Shown here in pieces: positions 3,996 through 18,912 of a stretch of 64,000 nt of DNA. Under the pieces are notes generated by a model. The model worked only from the letters and a program-made list of their open reading frames with translations, ran no database searches and had not been told where the DNA came from. How positions within the stretch are numbered: the stretch's first letter is position 1; every line of letters begins with the position of its first letter. Made by a program: the position numbers and the translations under genes. Location: contig NZ_JAKZFR010000001.1 in NCBI RefSeq assembly GCF_022808935.1, forward strand, positions 310,001 through 374,000, in the 5' to 3' direction. The stretch is from Geothrix sp. SG200. GTDB lineage: Bacteria; Acidobacteriota; Holophagae; Holophagales; Holophagaceae.

Positions 3996-4499
3996 TCAGC
4001 TTTTCGCTTTGGATGCGGCGGCGAGCTGTTCTTCGGTGAGGCCGAAGCGGGGGGCGACGGGGCGGCCGCGGAGGCTGGCCATGAGGTAGAGCTGGCCGCG
4101 GTGGTGGGCCTCGTGCTCGACCATGGCGCGGAGCCACTTCCATGTGGCCATGGAAGCCCCGGCTGGGTTCACGCAGGGGGCCAGCAGGTCCGTGTCCGCG
4201 AGGGTGCCGAAGATGGCCAGGGACTCGGCGTGGCAGCGGTCCGGGTAGGCGCGCACGCCGTCCAGGCCCGCCGCCAAGACAGCCCCGTGGCCCGGGTAGG
4301 TGCTGGGGCGGCCCTGCACGTTCTCCGCGTACATGAAGCGCTCCAGCCCAGCCAGGTGGCGGAACAGGTCGCCGAAGGTGAAGGCCCCGGTCGCCGGCGC
4401 CCACTCCAGATCCTCGGGTGCCAGCGCCTCCAGCACCCGCACCGTGCGGGAGCGGGCGTTGCGCCAGTAGGCGAGGATGGCCTGGAGATCCTGAAGCAT
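3996..4499 (-). CDS. DinB family protein
   Basis: This is a second DinB/YfiT-fold protein of 167 residues. Candidate metal ligands lie in FGDLFRHLAGLERFMY and in the C-terminal motif MVEHEAHHRGQLYLM, which closely matches the family's last histidine pair. The ATG at 4497-4499 has GGAGCCC upstream. Family roles range from thiol transferases to damage-inducible proteins of unknown activity. The C-terminal tail (AAASKAKS) ends at the edge of repeat element 2. Confidence 0.82.
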   Translation of the reverse strand: MLQDLQAILAYWRNARSRTVRVLEALAPEDLEWAPATGAFTFGDLFRHLAGLERFMYAENVQGRPSTYPGHGAVLAAGLDGVRAYPDRCHAESLAIFGTLADTDLLAPCVNPAGASMATWKWLRAMVEHEAHHRGQLYLMASLRGRPVAPRFGLTEEQLAAASKAKS

Positions 4500-4561
4500 G
4501 GAGAGGGCTCCACTAGGTGGCGAAATGATTTTCTAAGCTGACCTGCATATCTAAATATTTT

Positions 4562-6532
4562 TTAATTGACCAGCCGCGATCTAATGCGACCCGCCTTTAA
4601 GAAAGATTTTCTGAGGCCTGAAAAAGTCCTATGGCTTATCGAGCGAAGAGGCCCTTTGGGGAAGACCCAGGGCTCTAATTTAATATATATAAATAAAAAT
4701 CCGAGAATGTATACAAGTATTTTAATTATTGGGATGAGAACCGGGTATTTAGTTAAATTTAGATGAGTGATGTAGGAAGAAATTGAATAGGAGATTCCGC
4801 ATATGAATATTATGAAACCACAGTTCAGTAGATTTATGATTTGTTTCAATTTTCTTTTTTGACGCTGTCGCCGGGCCCATTTCTGCTGTAATGCCTCTTC
4901 TTTAAGTGTTTGAATGGTTTGTTCTGATTTTTGAAGTTGCTTAGCGATTGGTTCAATTTGCTTCTCTACAAGTGCTTCGAATTTTTGTGTCGTAAACTCA
5001 ATTATTTCTGGAAGTGTTTTTTCGGATAATGCCTTATCATTAGTGAGTGTAAAATCGGCAATTTCTGAGGAGTGAGCTCTCAATTTGTAATAGGTGTCGC
5101 TATCGATCTTTTCTTTCCTTAAAAGATCATCTAATTCATACTGAACTTGTTCGTTACGGATTGTGATTTTTTCGAGGCAAGATATTGAGTGTGCGAGCAA
5201 GGCATTGTCAATTATTCTGCTGTTCTTGCTCGGGGCCAGTAACCACAGACGATTGATTAACCAATAATCGGTCACAATGGGTGGGAATCCATTAAAGTCA
5301 TCCCCTTCTGCGTTTATAAATGTTCTAACGGCTTTAGCCAATGCGGAATTGTGAGTAATAAAAATTGCAGCGTTTTCGCTAATTTTTTTCGTCAATTTCC
5401 CTTCTCTAAATTGGTAAATTGCTGCAATACAATCTATATCATGTCGATTGGCCGCCAAAGGCCGTTCTCGACCATACTCTTGATTTATTAATTCCTCTAG
5501 TTTTCTTTCATCAATTACATAATTGGGGTCCCGTTGCGGTATATCGATTTGGTCAATGCCCTTTGAGTTGAGAGTAGAAACAAACTCGAGTTTAATTTGC
5601 ATAAGGCCAGCAGTAGAGATTTTTTTACTTCTAGCTGCTCTTAATGCCGTTTTGATTGTTTTAATATTGGTATCATTAAGGTTTTTTGCCGTATCCAAAA
5701 TAATACCAACAACTTCATCTTTGGTTCTGTCGAAAAAAGCAATTTTTGCTTTATATGCGAGCAATAAATTTGTAAGTTCCTGAATTGACTTCTCTTCTTC
5801 GGGAGATGATAATCCAATTAAAGCTAAAATTAATCTTGTATCATAAAGAAATAAACAACTAGTGTAATTTGATTTAAAATCGTTGCAGTTTTCTTCATGG
5901 GTTACGGATTGATATAACAAAAACCCTTGAAAAAAGGAAGAGATGATTTCGAACTCAGCTAAATTATTATCATGAAGGTGTTTTATGAATTGAGCAATCG
6001 GCCATAACTTACCAGTGGTTTCTTTTTTCTTGATTGAGAAATCTTTAATTAGTAGATCATAAGAATGAATTTGTAAGAAATTAATTATTTCGGACATAAA
6101 ATTAAAATTTTCATTAATTTTAATTTCTTTGTCACGGCAAAATGTTATAAAATTGTCCTTGATCGTATCAAATCTTTTGTTGTTCCTGTTGATAGTCTCC
6201 ACTATCTCGGCAGTTCTGATTTTATTCTTTACGACAATAACATTCTCATGCTTTGTTAAAATATTTCTGTCAATTAATTTTACGATTAAACGATCTATAA
6301 TATTTATTGGTAATTCTAGTCCACTTGTTTCAAGTAGTGAAACCCTTACTTGTTCAGAAGTAATATTTTGGGATTGAATTTTTGAAATCGCAATTTTAAC
6401 AAACGGTATCAACATGTCGTAGTAGTCCTGATGCTCAATCATGAAGGAGCGTAGGACTGCGATAGATAACAATCTATTTTTCTCGATTTGGCTTGCAGGA
6501 ATCAATGTATCCCCCGCTTTCTGATAGTTCAA
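4562..6532 (-). CDS. PIN-like nuclease candidate with C-terminal membrane anchor (unknown family)
   Basis: This AT-rich gene encodes about 656 residues in an otherwise GC-rich region, which suggests recent acquisition. Residues 35-105 look like a small winged-helix domain. Residues about 225-400 fit a PIN-like nuclease core: an acidic residue at the end of a strand (FLYD, Asp231), an acidic helix (KDEVVGIIL, Glu273), RHDIDCIAAI with Asp365 and Asp367, and strand-turn IFITHN (393-395). The last position is Asn where active PIN enzymes usually have Asp. A coiled coil (about 515-560) leads to two hydrophobic segments (565-588 and 595-617) and a basic tail. The start is uncertain: TTG at 6532, TTG at 6505 with GGGGGA upstream, or ATG at 6442. 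It stands alone; a defence or toxin role is only an inference. Confidence 0.8.
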   Translation of the reverse strand: MNYQKAGDTLIPASQIEKNRLLSIAVLRSFMIEHQDYYDMLIPFVKIAISKIQSQNITSEQVRVSLLETSGLELPINIIDRLIVKLIDRNILTKHENVIVVKNKIRTAEIVETINRNNKRFDTIKDNFITFCRDKEIKINENFNFMSEIINFLQIHSYDLLIKDFSIKKKETTGKLWPIAQFIKHLHDNNLAEFEIISSFFQGFLLYQSVTHEENCNDFKSNYTSCLFLYDTRLILALIGLSSPEEEKSIQELTNLLLAYKAKIAFFDRTKDEVVGIILDTAKNLNDTNIKTIKTALRAARSKKISTAGLMQIKLEFVSTLNSKGIDQIDIPQRDPNYVIDERKLEELINQEYGRERPLAANRHDIDCIAAIYQFREGKLTKKISENAAIFITHNSALAKAVRTFINAEGDDFNGFPPIVTDYWLINRLWLLAPSKNSRIIDNALLAHSISCLEKITIRNEQVQYELDDLLRKEKIDSDTYYKLRAHSSEIADFTLTNDKALSEKTLPEIIEFTTQKFEALVEKQIEPIAKQLQKSEQTIQTLKEEALQQKWARRQRQKRKLKQIINLLNCGFIIFICGISYSISSYITHLNLTKYPVLIPIIKILVYILGFLFIYIKLEPWVFPKGPLRSISHRTFSGLRKSFLKAGRIRSRLVN

Positions 6533-11699: not shown

Positions 11700-11807
11700 G
11701 CCGGGCCACCGGAACCGCAGGCCGGCGGAATGGGAGGGAACAAAGCGTCCCCTCGTGCATCCCTTCCTGTGAGCCGCCGAATCCGGCGGACTCACCTGGG
11801 AGAAGCC

Positions 11808-12290
11808 ATGAAGATCACTCGAACCCCACTCGCCCTGCTGGCGCTTGCCGCGTTCGCCCCTGCCTTCGCCGGGGGCGCAGGCTCCATGCACTCGATGCAC
11901 TCGATGCACGCCGATGCCCCCTCAGCCTGCCAGATGGCCTCCTGCACCATGAAGATGGATATGGCGCACATGGATATGGCGCACATGCGAATGGCGAAGG
12001 CCGCCCACGACGCGCCCGCCCCGGAGGCGACCGGCTCCTGGTACCTGCCGACCTGGGAGGAGGCGAAGGCCGCGACGAACGGCATGATGGCCTGCGATGA
12101 GGTGCAGAGCCCCGCGGCCCCGGCCGTGACGGCCCCCACCGCCTGGTACCTGCCCACCTGGGAGGATGCCGCCGCCACGGCGGCGAATCCCATGGCCTGC
12201 TGCGAGACAGCCTGCCCCATGAACCAGGCCAGCCACGCCCAGCCCGCTCCGTCCGAGAAGCCCGCCGAGTCCTGGTACTTGCCGTCCTGA
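11808..12290 (+). CDS. Exported Met/His/Cys-rich protein with WYLP repeats (unknown family)
   Basis: I do not recognise this 160-residue protein. Residues 1-21 form a clean signal peptide ending AFA. The next stretch (25-67) is packed with Met and His in short repeats (SMHSMHSMH, then MDMAHMDMAHMRMA), with Cys41 and Cys46. Three copies of a W-Y-L-P motif follow, at 78-81, 113-116 and 156-159; the first two read WYLPTWE. Each of the first two is followed by a Met/Cys cluster (MMAC; MACCETACPM). The composition suggests periplasmic binding of copper or another soft metal, supported by the downstream sigma factor and Cu+ ATPase. The ATG at 11808 has GGGAGA upstream. Confidence 0.8.
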   Translation: MKITRTPLALLALAAFAPAFAGGAGSMHSMHSMHADAPSACQMASCTMKMDMAHMDMAHMRMAKAAHDAPAPEATGSWYLPTWEEAKAATNGMMACDEVQSPAAPAVTAPTAWYLPTWEDAAATAANPMACCETACPMNQASHAQPAPSEKPAESWYLPS

Positions 12291-12408
12291 TCCGTCCTGT
12301 GGTCTGGTGGAGTGGCCCACCGCGCCCCGGTCCCGGCCGGTTCGTCCGGATGCCGCGCGGGGTGGTCGCCACGGTCGGGCGCGTCGAGGACGGCATGCAG
12401 GACATCCA

Positions 12409-12921
12409 TTGGACCTGACATCTGAATCCCTGGTGGAGGGGCATCTTGACGCGGTGTACGCCTACGCCCGGGCGAAGCTCCGCCAGGAGGACCTCGCCCG
12501 GGAGCTCGTCCAGCGGACCTTTCTCAAGGCCTTCGAGAAGCTGGGCCAGCTGCGGGACGCCCTGGCGGCCCGCGGCTGGCTGCTGTCCATCCTCCGCCAC
12601 GAGATCGCCATGGAGTTCAGGGCCAGCGCCCGGTTCGAAGTCTGGGACGACGAGGCCTTCGAGAACCTGCCGGGCCCCGAGGTGGACGAGGCCGTGGATC
12701 CGTCGCTGCTCGCGGCGCTGCCCGGCGCCCTCGACCGGCTTCCCGAGGCGGCCCGCTCCATCCTGCTCCTGCGCTTCCAGCAGGAGCTCTCCTACGAGCA
12801 GATCGGTGGCCTCCTGGACCTTCCCCTGGGCACCGTCCAGAGCCGGATCCACCGGGCCAAGGCGGCCCTGAAGGCCGCCATGGCAGAGGAAGGGCGCCCC
12901 GTGAAAGGAGGTGCGGTATGA
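12409..12921 (+). CDS. ECF-type RNA polymerase sigma factor
   Basis: The roughly 170-residue protein has sigma-70 region 2 (HLDAVYAYARAKLRQEDLARELVQRTFLKAFEKL) and region 4 (LDRLPEAARSILLLRFQQELSYEQIGGLLDLPLGTVQSRIHRAKAALKAAM). These are separated by a short acidic linker, as in extracytoplasmic-function sigma factors. The start is uncertain: I use the TTG at 12409, just after an AGGA, because the frame upstream to 12307 is not protein-like. Its stop overlaps the start of the next gene (ATGA), which has the size and topology of an anti-sigma factor. It probably controls the neighbouring metal-stress genes. Confidence 0.88.
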   Translation: MDLTSESLVEGHLDAVYAYARAKLRQEDLARELVQRTFLKAFEKLGQLRDALAARGWLLSILRHEIAMEFRASARFEVWDDEAFENLPGPEVDEAVDPSLLAALPGALDRLPEAARSILLLRFQQELSYEQIGGLLDLPLGTVQSRIHRAKAALKAAMAEEGRPVKGGAV

Positions 12922-13526
12922 CCCGGAACATGACCTCGACCCCTGGGTTCGACCAGCAGCTCAAGGACACCCTGCGCCCCGGCGCCGCCCCCGACGATCT
13001 TCGGCGCAGCCTGCTGCTCGGGGCCGGAACGCGGCGTTCGCGCTGGACCTGGCCGGCCCTGGGGATCGCCGCCCTGCTGATGGTCCTCCTGGGCGGGGGA
13101 ACCTGGGGGTGGATGGCCCTCGGGCGCGGCCAGGAAGGCTCGCGGCTCGCCCGGGCCTCGATCCAGCAGTACATGGAGGGCCCGCGCATGGAGTTCACCG
13201 CGGGGGCCTCCGGCCCGGATTCCGGGGAGCAGGGCCGGCGATGGTCCGCCCAGGCCGCCGGATTCTCCGCCGCACTGCCGAAGTGCCTGGCCGGGCAGGC
13301 CATGAAGGGGGGCTGCGTGTGCGACATGGAGGCCTGCCGCGCCGTCTGCTACTACCTCCAGGACGGCCGGGCCATCTACGTCTTCGACCGCACCCTCCAG
13401 GGCCTGCCCTTCGATTCGGACCAGCCCCGCCGGATCGCTTCCGAGGGACACCGGGCCCAGGCCTGGAACGAGAACGGCCGGGCCTATGTCCTCGTCGAGC
13501 CGCCGGGATGGGGCGGGCAGAGCTGA
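12918..13526 (+). CDS. Single-pass membrane protein, probable anti-sigma factor with Cys-rich periplasmic domain
   Basis: The protein has 202 residues. An N-terminal cytoplasmic segment (1-42) with DDLRRSLLLGA could bind the sigma factor; a membrane span follows at about 45-68, then a periplasmic domain. That domain carries five cysteines close together (Cys123, 133, 135, 140, 144), a plausible metal or redox sensor. The ATG overlaps the sigma stop codon and has AAAGGAGG upstream. I see no zinc-finger ZAS motif, so the anti-sigma role rests on position and topology. Together with the upstream WYLP-repeat protein and downstream copA, copper sensing is a reasonable inference. Confidence 0.75.
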   Translation: MTRNMTSTPGFDQQLKDTLRPGAAPDDLRRSLLLGAGTRRSRWTWPALGIAALLMVLLGGGTWGWMALGRGQEGSRLARASIQQYMEGPRMEFTAGASGPDSGEQGRRWSAQAAGFSAALPKCLAGQAMKGGCVCDMEACRAVCYYLQDGRAIYVFDRTLQGLPFDSDQPRRIASEGHRAQAWNENGRAYVLVEPPGWGGQS

Positions 13527-13618
13527 GCGGGCCGCGCGAGGGGCTCCCGGAACCGGCGGCGGCTGGGAGTCCTGAAACGGGATAGAGTGCCCTGGATCGC
13601 TTGCCGCGGGAGACACCC

Positions 13619-15907
13619 ATGCCTCACGACCACGGGCACCATCCTTCCGCCCGGCCCGAAGCCGCCCCGGCAGCGCCTTCCGGGCCGTGGTACGTCTGCC
13701 CCATGCATCCCGACATCCGCCGGGACCGGCCCGGCGCTTGCCCCACGTGCGGCATGGCGCTGGAGCCCGAGGCTCCGATGCAGGCCGCGGCAACGGAGTA
13801 CGTCTGTCCCATGCACCCGGAGGTGGTGCGGGACCGGCCCGGCGCCTGCCCGATCTGCGGGATGGCGCTGGAGCCCCGCGCCGCAGCCATGGAGGATGAG
13901 CCGAATCCCGAGCTGGCCGACATGAGCCGGCGCTTCTGGACCGGCGCGGCCCTGACGCTTCCCGTGTTCCTCATGGCCATGTCCGACCTGGTCCCGGGCG
14001 ACCCCTTGCGCGCCCGCCTCGGCGCGGCCGCCTTCACCTGGATCCAGCTGGCGCTGGCGACGCCGGTGGTGCTCTGGGCGGGCTGGCCCTTCTTCGAGCG
14101 CGGCTGGGCCTCGGTCCGGAACCGCTCCCTGAACATGTTCACGCTGATCGCCCTGGGCACGGGCGTGGCCTACGTGTACAGCCTGTTCGCGGCCCTGTTC
14201 CCGGGGGCGCTGCCCCACAGCTTCCGGGGACACGGCGGCACGGTCCCCGTGTACTTCGAAGCCGCCGCGGTCATCGTCACCCTGGTGCTGCTGGGGCAGG
14301 TGCTGGAGCTGAAGGCCCGCAGCGCGACGTCGAGCGCCATCAAGGCGCTGCTGGGGCTCGCCCCCCGGACCGCGCGGCGGGTGGAGGCCGACGGCGCCGA
14401 GCGCGATGTGCTCCTGGCGGAGGTCCAGGTGGGGGACCGCCTGCGGGTGCGCCCCGGCGAGAAGGTGCCCGTGGACGGCGTGGTGCTGGAAGGCGCGAGC
14501 GCCGTGGACGAATCCATGGTCACCGGCGAATCCATCCCCACCGAGAAGGCCCCCGCCTCGAAGGTGATCGGAGGCACCCTCAACGGGACCGGCGGGCTGC
14601 TCATCCGCGCCGAGCGCGTGGGCCGCGACACGCTGCTCGCCCAGATCGTGCAGCAGGTGAGCGAGGCCCAGCGCAGCCGCGCCCCCATCCAGCGCCTGGC
14701 GGACCAGGTGGCCGCCTGGTTCGTCCCCGCCGTGGTGGTCGCCGCCGCGGCGACGGCCCTGGTCTGGGCCCTCCGGGGGCCCGAGCCCCGCCTGGCCTAC
14801 GCCCTGCTCAACGCCGTGGCGGTGCTCATCATCGCCTGCCCCTGCGCCCTGGGGCTCGCCACGCCCATGTCCATCATGGTGGGGGCCGGTGCCGGCGCCC
14901 GCGCGGGGGTGCTGATCCGCGACGCCGAGGCCCTGGAGGCCATGGAGAAGGTGGACACGCTCCTGGTGGACAAAACCGGCACGCTCACCGAAGGCAGGCC
15001 CCGCCTGGCGTCGGTGGCGCCGGTCGAGGGCCAGGACGAAGCCACCCTGCTGCGCCTGGCCGCGGCCCTGGAGCGCGGCAGCGAGCACCCGCTCGCCGCC
15101 GCCATCGTCGCGGGGGCCGAGGCCCGGCAGCTGGTCCTGCCCCCGGCGGACGGCTTCCAGTCCGTCACGGGCCTGGGCGTGACGGGCACCGTCGAAGGCC
15201 GCGCGGTGCTCCTGGGCAATGCGGGGCTGCTCCGCGACCGCGGCATCGCCACCGAAGCCCTGGAGGCGAAAGCCGAGGCGCTGCGGCGCGAGGGCCAGAC
15301 CGTGATGCTCGTGGCCCTGGACGGCCGCCCGGCGGGCCTCATCGGCGTGGCGGACCCCATCAAGGCGAGCACGCCGGAGGCCCTGGCCCAGCTGCGGAAG
15401 GAGGGCCTCCGCATCGTCATGCTGACGGGCGACAGCCGGGCCACGGCGGCGGCCGTGGCGGCGCGCCTCGGGCTTGAGGACTTCGAGGCGGAGATCCTTC
15501 CCCAGGGCAAGGGGGATGTGGTCAGGCGGCTCCAGGCCGAGGGCCGCGTCGTCGCCATGGCGGGCGACGGGGTGAACGATGCGCCGGCGCTGGCGCTGGC
15601 CCAGGTGGGCATCGCCATGGGCACGGGCACGGACATCGCCATGCAGAGCTCCGGCATCACCCTGGTGAAGGGCGACCTGCGCGGCATCCTGCGGGCGATC
15701 CGCCTGAGCCGGGCCACCCTGGGCAACATCCGCCAGAACCTGTTCCTGGCCTTCATCTACAACGTGATCGGAATCCCCCTGGCCGCGGGCGTGCTGTACC
15801 CGGTCTTCGGGCTGCTGCTGAGCCCCATGATCGCCAGCGCCGCCATGAGCCTGTCCTCGGTGTCGGTCATCGGGAACGCGCTGCGGCTGCGGTCGGTGAA
15901 GCTGTAG
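13619..15907 (+). CDS. copA: Copper-translocating P-type ATPase (P1B)
   Basis: This is a 762-residue inner-membrane Cu+ exporter. In place of a classical HMA domain, the N-terminus has a His-rich stretch (PHDHGHH) and two tandem short metal-binding modules, each starting YVCPMHP and ending CPxCGMALEP. The core shows VTGES, the transmembrane metal site Cys407-Pro-Cys409, phosphorylated Asp451 in DKTGTLT, the P1B-specific SEHPLA, and [12 protein letters not shown] choose the ATG at 13619 (GGGAGA upstream) over the in-frame TTG at 13601. Its position after a sigma/anti-sigma pair suggests stress-induced expression. Confidence 0.95.
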
Positions 15908-15982
15908 GGGGGTGCGGAGCCCACGTGCTGGTTGTGCTGAGAAGGGGACTCAGTCATCCGCAAAATTGTTGACCCATGGGTA

Positions 15983-16028
15983 TTGACCAATGTGACTCGT
16001 TCGGTAATGTTAGTGAAATAGTCACATT
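15983..16028 (+). promoter_or_regulatory. Promoter and probable Rrf2 operator
   Basis: TTGACC at 15983-15988 and TAATGT at 16005-16010 form a good sigma-70-type promoter with a 16-base spacer. A perfect 9-bp inverted repeat, AATGTGACT at 15989-15997 and AGTCACATT at 16020-16028, begins in the spacer and brackets the -10 and transcription start region. It lies 10 bases before the Rrf2 start codon, so autorepression is likely. Confidence 0.65.
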
Positions 16029-16038
16029 CCGGGGCCCC

Positions 16039-16518
16039 ATGATCGGCATCTCCAGACAGACGGACTACGCGGCGAGGCTGGTGCTGCACCTGGCCACGCT
16101 CGAGCCCGGCACGCGCGTCTCCATCGGCGAGATCGCCCAGCTCCGCCTCCTGCCGGAGGCCTTCGTGCGGCGCCTGTCCGCCAGCCTCGTGAAGACGGAC
16201 ATCCTCCGCACGGCCCGGGGCACGGGGGGCGGCATCAGCCTGGCGCGGCCCGCCGCGGAGATCTCGCTGCTCGATGTCATCGAGGCGGTGGAGGGCGGCA
16301 TCGTCCTCAACCAGTGCCTCGACGGCAAGCACATCTGCCCCCTGTCGAAGGGCTGCCCCGTGCAGGGCGCCTGGGCGGCCGCCACGCAGGCCCTGCGGGA
16401 CCACCTGGCGGGCGTGCGCTTCGACGCCCTGGCCCACGATTCCGAGGCGCACCTCAGCGCCCACCTCTCCCGCCACGCCGCCGTCCGGACGGCGGCGTCG
16501 GCCTGTACCGTCTCCTAG
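16039..16518 (+). CDS. Rrf2 family transcriptional regulator (Fe-S type)
   Basis: This 159-residue winged-helix protein has the family start ISRQTDYAARLVLHLA, the recognition helix LLPEAFVRRLSASLVKTDIL, and RGTGGGISLARPAAEISLLDVIEAVEG. Three cysteines, Cys93-x6-Cys100-x5-Cys106, sit where IscR and NsrR bind an iron-sulfur cluster, so it probably senses NO, oxygen or redox state. I use the ATG at 16039; a frame open upstream covers the promoter. It lies 37 bases before cydA in the same direction, making the cytochrome bd genes its likely targets. Confidence 0.9.
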   Translation: MIGISRQTDYAARLVLHLATLEPGTRVSIGEIAQLRLLPEAFVRRLSASLVKTDILRTARGTGGGISLARPAAEISLLDVIEAVEGGIVLNQCLDGKHICPLSKGCPVQGAWAAATQALRDHLAGVRFDALAHDSEAHLSAHLSRHAAVRTAASACTVS

Positions 16519-16555
16519 CGCACTCACCCATACCCCCCCCTGAAAGGAGGACACC

Positions 16556-17875
16556 TTGGATGTCCTAGCCCTGTCGCGCCTGCAATTCGCGGTCGCCACC
16601 TACTTCCACTTCCTGTTCGTGCCCCTGACGCTGGGCCTCTCGATGCTCGTCGCCCTCATGGAGACGCAGTACGTGCGCACCGGCGACGAGGACTACAAGC
16701 GCATGGCGAAGTTCTGGGGGAAGCTCTTCCTCATCAACTTCGCCGTGGGCGTGGTGACGGGCCTGACGCTGGAGTTCCAGTTCGGCACGAACTGGTCGCG
16801 CTACTCCGCCTACGTGGGCGACATCTTCGGCTCGCTGCTGGCCATCGAGGCCACGGCGGCCTTCTTCCTGGAGTCCACCTTCATCGCCGTGTGGCACTTC
16901 GGCTGGGAGAAGCTCTCGAAGAAGGCCCACGTCACCGCCATCTGGCTGGTGGCCATCGCCTCGAACCTCTCGGCCTTCTGGATCCTGGTGGCCAACGCCT
17001 GGATGCAGCACCCCACGGGCTTCGTGCTGCGGAACGGCCGCGCCGAGCTGGCGGACTTCGTCGCCGTCATCACCCAGCGCTTCGCCATCCTGGAGTTCAT
17101 CCACACCCTGGGCGGCGCCTACCTCACGGCGGGCTTCTTCGTGCTGGGCATCTCCGCCTGGCACCTGATCCGCAGGCATGAGACGGCCTTCTTCAAGAAG
17201 TCCTTCCGCCTGGCGGCGGCCTGGACGCTGATCTTCGCGCTGTTTGAGATCGCCCAGGGCCACATGAACGCCGAGATCCTCAGCACCGCCCAGCCCACCA
17301 AGCTGGCGGCCATGGAGGCCCACTGGGAGACGGGCCGCCACGTGCCCATGCACCTGCTGGCCTGGCCCGACGCCGCGAACGAGCGCAACACCGTGCAGTC
17401 GCTCTCCGTGCCCAGCGGCCTCAGCCTGCTGGCCACCTACTCCACCGGCGGCGAGGTGAAGGGCCTGAAGGACTACCCCGCCTCGGAGCGCCCGCCCGTG
17501 CTGCCCGTGTTCCTCAGCTTCCGCGCCATGGTGGGCCTGGGCATGCTGTTCCTGGCGCTGGGCCTCTGGGCCTTCCTCAAGCGCCACCGCATCGAAGAGC
17601 AGCCGCGCTTCCTGAAGGTGCTGCCCTGGCTCATCCCGCTGCCCTACCTGGCCAACGAGCTGGGCTGGACCATCGCGGAGCTGGGCCGCCAGCCGTGGAT
17701 CGTCTACGGCCTGATGAAGACCTCCGACGCCGTGTCGCCCCTGGCCACCTCGCAGGTGGGCACCTCGCTCGCGGCGTTCTTCCTCGTCTACGCGCTGCTG
17801 GGCGCGGTGGACTTCTACCTGCTGTTCACGTTCGCCCGCAAGGGCCCTGACGCCGCCGCCGCGGCCGCGAAGTGA
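16556..17875 (+). CDS. cydA: Cytochrome bd ubiquinol oxidase subunit I
   Basis: This 439-residue membrane subunit carries the heme and quinol sites of the high-affinity cytochrome bd oxidase. It begins LALSRLQFAVATYFHFLFVPLTLGLS, with the conserved His near the heme b595 site. It also includes ETQYVRTGDEDYKRMAKFWGKLF, GRQPWIVYGLMKT, and multiple membrane spans. Its length and short loop after the sixth helix suit the short-Q-loop class. The start codon is TTG at 16556, supported by AAAGGAGG six bases upstream. cydB follows 11 bases after the stop. Confidence 0.95.
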   Translation: MDVLALSRLQFAVATYFHFLFVPLTLGLSMLVALMETQYVRTGDEDYKRMAKFWGKLFLINFAVGVVTGLTLEFQFGTNWSRYSAYVGDIFGSLLAIEATAAFFLESTFIAVWHFGWEKLSKKAHVTAIWLVAIASNLSAFWILVANAWMQHPTGFVLRNGRAELADFVAVITQRFAILEFIHTLGGAYLTAGFFVLGISAWHLIRRHETAFFKKSFRLAAAWTLIFALFEIAQGHMNAEILSTAQPTKLAAMEAHWETGRHVPMHLLAWPDAANERNTVQSLSVPSGLSLLATYSTGGEVKGLKDYPASERPPVLPVFLSFRAMVGLGMLFLALGLWAFLKRHRIEEQPRFLKVLPWLIPLPYLANELGWTIAELGRQPWIVYGLMKTSDAVSPLATSQVGTSLAAFFLVYALLGAVDFYLLFTFARKGPDAAAAAAK

Positions 17876-17886
17876 GGGAGGCGACC

Positions 17887-18912
17887 ATGCTGGAATCCAT
17901 CTGGTTCGTGATCTGGGGCGTGGCCTGGGCCGTCTACTTCATGCTCGACGGCTTCGACCTGGGCCTGGGCACGCTGTTCCCCTTCCTGGCGAAGGACGAA
18001 ACCGACAAGCGCATCCTCGTGAACGCCATGGGGCCCTTCTGGGACGGCAACGAGGTGTGGCTCATCACGGCGGGCGGCGTGACCTTCGCGGCCTTCCCAA
18101 GGGCCTACGCCATCATGTTCTCCGGCCTCTACACGCCGCTGATGCTGCTGCTCTTCGCGCTCATCCTGCGGGGCGTGGCCTTCGAGTTCCGGGGCAAGGT
18201 GGACAGCGACCGCTGGCGCGCCACGTGGGACGCCTGCCTGGTGGCGGGCTCCTTCCTGCCCGCGCTGCTGCTGGGCGTGGCCTTCGCCAACATCTTCCAG
18301 GGCCTGCCCCTGGACGCTGCGGGGCTCTTCCACGGCAACCTGCTCACGCTGCTGAACCCCTACGGCCTGCTGGGCGGCGCGCTGTTCGTGCTGATCTTCG
18401 CCGTGCATGGCGCCCTGTGGCTGACCACCCGCACCGAGGGCGACCTGCAGGCGCGGGCCGGCCGCATGGCCACCACCCTGTGGCTGATGGAAGCCGTCGT
18501 GGCCGTGGCCTTCCTCGTCCAGACCTGGTTCAGCACGCGGCTCTGGCAGAACGTGCTGGCGAAGCCCGTCCTCCTCGCGCTGCCCCTGCTGGCCGTGGCG
18601 GGCCTGCTGCTGACGCGGGTCTTCGCAGGGAAGGGCGCCTGGTGGAAGGCCTGGTTCGCCTCGTCGGCCCTCATCCTGGGCGCCGTGCTCTTCGGCGTGG
18701 CGGGCCTCTTCCCCGATCTTCTGCCCTCCAGCCTGGACCCCGCGGCCTCGGTGACGGCGTTCAACGCCGCCTCCAGCCCGCTGACGCTGAAGATCATGCT
18801 GGGCGTGGTGCTCTGCTTCCTGCCCGTGGTCATCGGCTACCAGCTGTGGGTGTACCTGACGTTCCGGGATGCGGTGACCGCCGAGAGCATCGAACGCGGA
18901 CCTTCCTACTGA
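17887..18912 (+). CDS. cydB: Cytochrome bd ubiquinol oxidase subunit II
   Basis: This 341-residue integral membrane subunit pairs with CydA. It has the family N-terminus WFVIWGVAWAVYFMLDGFDLGLGTLFPFL, followed by MGPFWDGNEVWLITAGG and about eight hydrophobic spans. The ATG at 17887 has GGGAGG upstream. A GC-rich hairpin follows the stop. No cydX-like small ORF is apparent, and cydC/cydD are not in this window. Confidence 0.95.
   Translation: MLESIWFVIWGVAWAVYFMLDGFDLGLGTLFPFLAKDETDKRILVNAMGPFWDGNEVWLITAGGVTFAAFPRAYAIMFSGLYTPLMLLLFALILRGVAFEFRGKVDSDRWRATWDACLVAGSFLPALLLGVAFANIFQGLPLDAAGLFHGNLLTLLNPYGLLGGALFVLIFAVHGALWLTTRTEGDLQARAGRMATTLWLMEAVVAVAFLVQTWFSTRLWQNVLAKPVLLALPLLAVAGLLLTRVFAGKGAWWKAWFASSALILGAVLFGVAGLFPDLLPSSLDPAASVTAFNAASSPLTLKIMLGVVLCFLPVVIGYQLWVYLTFRDAVTAESIERGPSY

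Follow-up and report, generated by a model that had tools for sequence, protein, structure and literature searches.

The window, a stretch of 64,000 nucleotides from Geothrix sp. SG200, contains at positions 11808-12290 of the forward strand an open reading frame for a protein of 160 amino acids, the first gene of a small cassette. A ribosome binding site, GGGAGA, lies six bases 5' of the ATG, and residues 1-21 form a Sec-type signal peptide (MKITRTPLALLALAAFAPAFA followed by GGAG, assigned by eye and by hydropathy; mean hydropathy of the best 12 residues 2.27). The mature part of 139 residues holds 15 Met, 7 His and six Cys, the latter at positions 41, 46, 96, 131, 132 and 136 with two CxxxxC spacings, as well as three WYLP motifs beginning at W78, W113 and W156. 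A Met/His stretch covers approximately residues 27-62 and is species-specific to the copy in the window. When the mature sequence was shuffled 20,000 times, no shuffle gave two or more WYLP motifs, and the codon bias of the gene is evident from a GC3 of 0.89 versus a GC1+2 of 0.60. Together with the orthologues described below, these features confirm the original prediction of an exported protein combining three WYLP motifs with Cys and Met/His residues. The statement that it belongs to no known family likewise held: no match was obtained in Pfam, NCBIfam or among the solved structures of the PDB, and a plasmid search returned none either. We consider the WYLP protein a lineage-restricted, new protein family. 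No description of the protein or of its cassette was found in the open-licence PMC literature, with WYLP papers judged by titles and abstracts, and both appear to be undescribed.

Downstream, an ECF sigma factor is encoded at 12409-12921 on the forward strand (Sigma70_r2, 1.6e-9; Sigma70_r4_2, 8.3e-15). Its frame is open from a GTG at 12307, but the start is probably the TTG at 12409, as this is where the relatives start. The sigma factor comprises Sigma70 regions 2 and 4 only and is co-encoded with a membrane protein at 12918-13526 (forward strand, overlapping sigma by 4 nt), the arrangement of an ECF unit. From its position and topology, this protein is the likely anti-sigma factor. The alignment suggests a short cytoplasmic part, one transmembrane helix (residues ~46-66) and a periplasmic domain with CLAGQAMKGGCVCDMEACRAVC; the window copy has five periplasmic Cys, copies elsewhere fewer. 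The AlphaFold model (two sequences) has a mean pLDDT of 45, and a search with the alignment against solved structures gave weak matches only, the best to designed proteins (E 0.008) and one to CopK (E 0.28). No Pfam family matched. The predicted Cys-rich anti-sigma candidate stands as a membrane protein with periplasmic Cys, but its sole profile match, NF052375, lies far under the cut-off (E=1e-4). A copper-type P1B ATPase with two HMBD domains follows at 13601-15907 (forward strand; TIGR01511, 590 bits, cut-off 397); this gene and the ECF sigma factor, the neighbours named in the prediction, were both recovered by Pfam and NCBIfam profiles. Beyond it, positions 15976-18912 encode an Rrf2 regulator with CLDGKHICPLSKGCPV, then cydA and cydB type oxidase genes.

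With the anti-sigma factor as tracer, the module was detected in 11 of 77 family genomes at E ≤ 2.3e-11. One more match, in genome G014, is a fragment (locus L045, 6682-7233), a decayed remnant with neither the sigma gene nor its upstream partner found on the contig. Distant acidobacterial matches were rejected as module members and regarded as ordinary anti-sigma factors; several of them lie, by eye, beside TlpA/AcrB-like genes. Immediately 5' of sigma, a position that we call the slot, a small exported Cys-rich ORF is present in 11/11 loci with upstream sequence. This count comprises ten anti-sigma genomes and G026, where the contig stops short of the anti-sigma gene, and omits G056, whose contig starts inside sigma, and G014, with its anti-sigma fragment and no sigma found. 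An automated slot screen recovered 10/10 test loci. Applied to 18 paralogous ECF loci, the weak anti-sigma matches L018-L035 (a subset of the weak matches), it returned six ORFs from five loci, all of them lacking a hydrophobic core; their best hydropathy was at most 0.39, compared to 1.83-2.74 for the slot proteins.

The content of the slot differs widely. Four loci carry a WYLP protein and G020 a 189-aa relative with three WYLQT motifs. G059 has a CxxCxxC protein of 80 aa, G052 a protein of 81 aa with Met/His and Cys, and G053 a peptide of 57 aa; in G060, G062 and G063 the slot peptides are metallothionein-like and 68-71 aa long. The exported, Lys/Cys-rich metallothionein-like peptides of loci L042, L043 and L044 (68-71 aa) come from a different genus and have the same kind of promoter; those of L042 and L044 gave no family match. 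Bacterial metallothioneins such as MymT and SmtA are small, Cys-rich and of low complexity, and the slot peptides of genus g7 resemble them. The WYLP protein, unlike metallothioneins, is exported, has only six Cys in 139 residues and shows no sequence match to them. Across the loci, the slot peptide changes almost wholly between genera while the promoter-sigma-anti-sigma unit stays.

An ECF-type promoter is located at 11737-11762 on the forward strand (GGAACAAA-N13-CATCC, that is GGAAC-N16-CATCC), with its -10 element ending 45 nt 5' of the ATG. In all 11 module loci, GGAAY-N16-CATCC/CGTCT is found 36-46 nt 5' of the slot ATG. GGAAC/GGAAT-N16-CATCC/CGTCT is the form of an autoregulated ECF promoter, and judged by sequence the module is probably autoregulated. 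The 5' leader at 11763-11807 (forward strand) may form a hairpin, GAGCCGCC...GGCGGACTC, before the ribosome binding site; the consensus fold reaches -8.4 kcal/mol, with two-sided compensatory changes in 0/14 pairs among eight sequences. The target is nearly unique: with at most one mismatch, the window's genome has a single GGAACAAA-N12-GCATCC site, that at 11737, and across eight module genomes a search at this tolerance gave 10 matches, 8 of them at the slot gene; a backward control pattern gave three. One of the two other matches, in G053, is unrelated. The second lies in G059, 5' of a second small exported gene (L037, 11045-11356, reverse strand) which encodes two RWFAGKYRP repeats and no Cys, has a heavy-metal-type sensor kinase and a transposase gene in its vicinity, and has only two other matches in 77 genomes, both weak (E 0.003 and 0.006). 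The regulon thus looks limited to the operon. A looser pattern with spacings of 12-14 matched in 31/77 genomes, many of the matches being N12-spaced sites in Geothrix genomes that lack the module. At 113023-113047 of contig C4 of the window's genome and at similar Geothrix sites, a near-identical element, GGAACAAAAGGACTTGGATCCATCC, recurs with a spacing one base shorter, in genomes both with and without the module. A promoter match in G073 was discarded, the frame downstream being unrelated.

The relatives of the WYLP protein are 53-71% identical and restricted to Geothrix-type genomes, one of them Geothrix fermentans DSM 14018. A single-protein search of the 77 family genomes found it in four (G000, the genome of the window, G026, G012 and G006). 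A five-row profile run on 396 genomes of the phylum matched strongly in G000, G006, G012 and G020 and weakly in G059, G052 and G267. The G059 and G052 matches span only the first 36-37 positions, the signal peptide region, and the G267 match, for which only the flanking DNA was looked at, was rejected as a WYLP homologue. NG86 omega values of 0.54-0.73 for all six pairs of the four orthologues indicate that the constraint on the gene is real but weak overall; in the alignment it is concentrated in WYLP and Cys islands. The gene evolves fast. All six Cys and all three WYLP motifs are invariant in the four orthologues. Met and His vary: against 15 and 7 in the window copy, there are 3 and 0 in the closest relative (G026), 5 and 3 in G012, and 6 and 3 in G. 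fermentans. The Met/His clusters named in the original prediction are thus missing or diminished in the three closest relatives, and we rejected them as a family-wide binding site. The candidates for binding are instead the six invariant Cys as putative ligands. The G020 relative retains Cys but without the CC-x3-C spacing, which counts against a role in thiol sequestration.

The copper ATPase, which had been read as a pointer to copper, does not serve as one across the family. It lies 3' of the anti-sigma gene in only two of the ten modules inspected, G000 and G012 (G026, where the contig ends, and G060, where the downstream region was not displayed, are omitted from this count). We therefore rejected it as a constant partner and regard it as an optional passenger added to the cassette in these two genomes. 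CopS/CzcS-like sensor kinases are located near the G020 and G059 modules, scoring 256-263 bits at a cut-off of 292.55. Homologues thus do not occur only away from metal genes, yet most modules have no obvious metal gene adjoining. The conserved core consists of the six Cys, the three WYLP motifs and the promoter-sigma-anti-sigma unit, and includes neither Met/His nor the copper ATPase.

To evaluate insertion, 17 loci were compared with rrf2 as anchor. In 12 of them, rrf2 comes at most 200 nt after rimI, and in G010 and G020 approximately 1.2 kb of other sequence separates the two genes. The module or its copper ATPase lies between rimI and rrf2 in three loci (G000, G012 and G006), with a gap of 4.3 kb in the window; the G020 module is located on a different contig from its rrf2 locus. 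The fact that relatives without the module have an empty rimI-rrf2 site identifies the module as an inserted cassette. Some Geothrix genomes carry tandem rrf2 copies at this locus. Elsewhere in the window, a 656-aa ORF on the reverse strand (4562-6532) matches no Pfam family above cut-off and nothing in PADLOC; it lies in an AT-rich stretch (GC 0.45 at 4001-6000 versus ~0.70 around it) that is probably foreign DNA.

Our best explanation, held with moderate confidence, is an autoregulated, inserted ECF cassette for envelope stress that makes a thiol-rich peptide for sequestration in the periplasm, with Cu(I) or other soft metals as the most likely targets. The cassette runs from the promoter through the exported Cys-rich peptide, sigma and anti-sigma, here with the copper ATPase added. 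At rest, sigma would be held at the membrane by the anti-sigma factor. Contact of the latter's periplasmic Cys cluster with a soft metal (most likely Cu(I)) or with thiol-reactive stress of another kind would release sigma, which would then read the promoter at 11737 and give more peptide, sigma and anti-sigma. The peptide, exported via Sec and presumably a largely disordered thiol ligand, would sequester the metal in the periplasm and so close the loop by negative feedback. An exported thiol-rich peptide appears to be the sole widely conserved output of the cassette. Copper is favoured, and we infer it to be the metal, on account of the ATPase in the window and of the CopS/CzcS-like kinases close to two of the other modules. 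The proposed metal-binding role thus survives in part: the setting is a stress unit with an ECF sigma factor and a Cys-bearing anti-sigma factor, but the case for copper specifically is weakened, since the Met/His clusters are not kept and the ATPase is present in 2/10 modules. As a guess, Trp and Tyr of WYLP may take part in the putative binding site. The Cys-free W/Y-repeat protein that is the second target in G059 is not accounted for by a pure metal-thiol role and speaks against it.

Among known peptide-plus-ECF stress systems, which the cassette resembles, the bufferins and Caulobacter sigma-F/NrsF are the nearest. According to the reports, sigma-F/NrsF regulates exported Cys proteins in response to chromium and cadmium stress (PMC3511200) and bufferins bind copper via MNIO-modified Cys (PMC12452194, PMC13097082). 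As described there, BufA1/BufA2 and sigma-F/NrsF share with our cassette a Sec-exported Cys peptide under an ECF sigma factor and a Cys-bearing membrane anti-sigma factor; metal response and periplasmic copper sequestration, reported for those systems (PMC3511200, PMC12452194), are proposed here. Unlike them, the module lacks DUF2282, MNIO, DUF2063 and NrsF, has WYLP repeats, and its anti-sigma factor falls outside Pfam. Copper ECF factors of the CorE type are also known (PMC10141476). SigAb-AabA-AabB of Acinetobacter is a lineage-specific, copper-responsive ECF system with a tiny direct regulon (PMC12153292); our sigma factor is similarly lineage-specific with an apparently narrow regulon, and the abstract on SigAb mentions no exported Cys-rich peptide.

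The main rival to sequestration is that the Met/Cys-rich peptide is a sacrificial scavenger of HOCl, peroxide or reactive sulfur, oxidised in place of envelope proteins, a role proposed for MrpX/BcrX, with the anti-sigma factor sensing thiol oxidation; we consider this unlikely. The gene logic is that of Brucella bcrX next to ECF16 bcrS-abcS, where BcrS-AbcS is reported to control the methionine-rich peptide BcrX, linked to HOCl resistance (PMC8315932), and distant acidobacterial anti-sigma relatives lie, by eye, beside thioredoxin/TlpA-like genes. For BcrX/MrpX with BcrS-AbcS or SigF-NrsF, the same source places a small exported peptide gene next to the sigma/anti-sigma pair and under control of that sigma. 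However, bcrX is there a separate operon with msrPQ-like genes, while the WYLP gene is the first of the sigma operon; here it is Cys that is conserved and not Met, the number of which varies from 3 to 15 in the orthologues. These have no conserved Met-rich repeat, the window neighbourhood shows no msrPQ and, by annotation and Pfam, no methionine sulfoxide reductase, and the CxxxxC and CC settings of the Cys resemble ligands more.

A doubtful extension is that one dedicated sigma factor serves a single slot whose contents are swapped between lineages and which provides two functions that can be separated, one residing in the Cys and the other in aromatic repeats (WYLP, WYLQT, RWFAGKYRP). A single protein would combine both in Geothrix, and G059 would have a gene for each, both behind the same promoter. 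The repeats would then be a second element, with Trp and Tyr acting, for instance, as cation-pi or redox ligands alongside the thiolates; if this is true, such proteins would make up a new class of metal or redox buffers in the periplasm.

It is rather improbable that the peptide is a RiPP precursor, modified in trans by the MNIO enzyme of the genome in the manner of bufferins or oxazolins. A search of 11 module genomes found MNIO (PF05114) in 7. One report places bufferin precursors away from MNIO genes and names a CxxxxC pattern, of which the WYLP protein has two spacings, for one MNIO precursor family (PMC12452194). The G053 slot peptide matches BufA2 weakly (E 0.0019, 18.3 of 60 bits), and a Sec signal peptide on a Cys-containing precursor was found by eye and hydropathy. 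Against this, MNIO and DUF2063 partners are absent from the module, the WYLP protein matched none of the BufA1/DUF2282, BufA2 and HvfA profiles of Pfam and NCBIfam at E up to 1, and the module also occurs in G063, a 93% complete genome in which MNIO gave no match. In the window's genome, MNIO lies on another contig with a precursor of its own bearing GSCGKGSCG (HvfA-like, E 0.001, below cut-off). We thus rejected membership among bufferin/MNIO precursors. That other locus (L112, 1971-3950; contig C9, 165470-167449) encodes MNIO, a small exported precursor with GSCGKGSCGSK repeats and a partner-like ORF, and is probably a bufferin/oxazolin-type cluster.

Equally hard to credit is a peptide that acts not as effector but as regulator or signal for the anti-sigma factor, a periplasmic co-anti-sigma or ligand with WYLP as docking motif. 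Strict linkage to sigma/anti-sigma (11/11) and a regulon seemingly confined to the operon would fit, but other genera retain the anti-sigma domain although their peptide has lost WYLP and is mostly different in sequence, which is odd for a dedicated docking partner. A copper chaperone serving only the adjacent P-type ATPase, with which it likely shares an operon in the window and in G012, is very improbable given that 8/10 inspected modules, including that of the WYLP-bearing G. fermentans, have no adjoining ATPase.

The cassette provides Acidobacteriota with an ECF stress system that is compact and movable and that has a precise promoter, an apparently operon-limited regulon and a fast-changing exported peptide. 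It makes directly testable what a sigma factor devoted to one peptide protects against, and whether different Cys-rich peptides are interchangeable for one stress. The rule of the slot before sigma, rather than sequence similarity, may reveal many orphan Cys-rich exported peptides.
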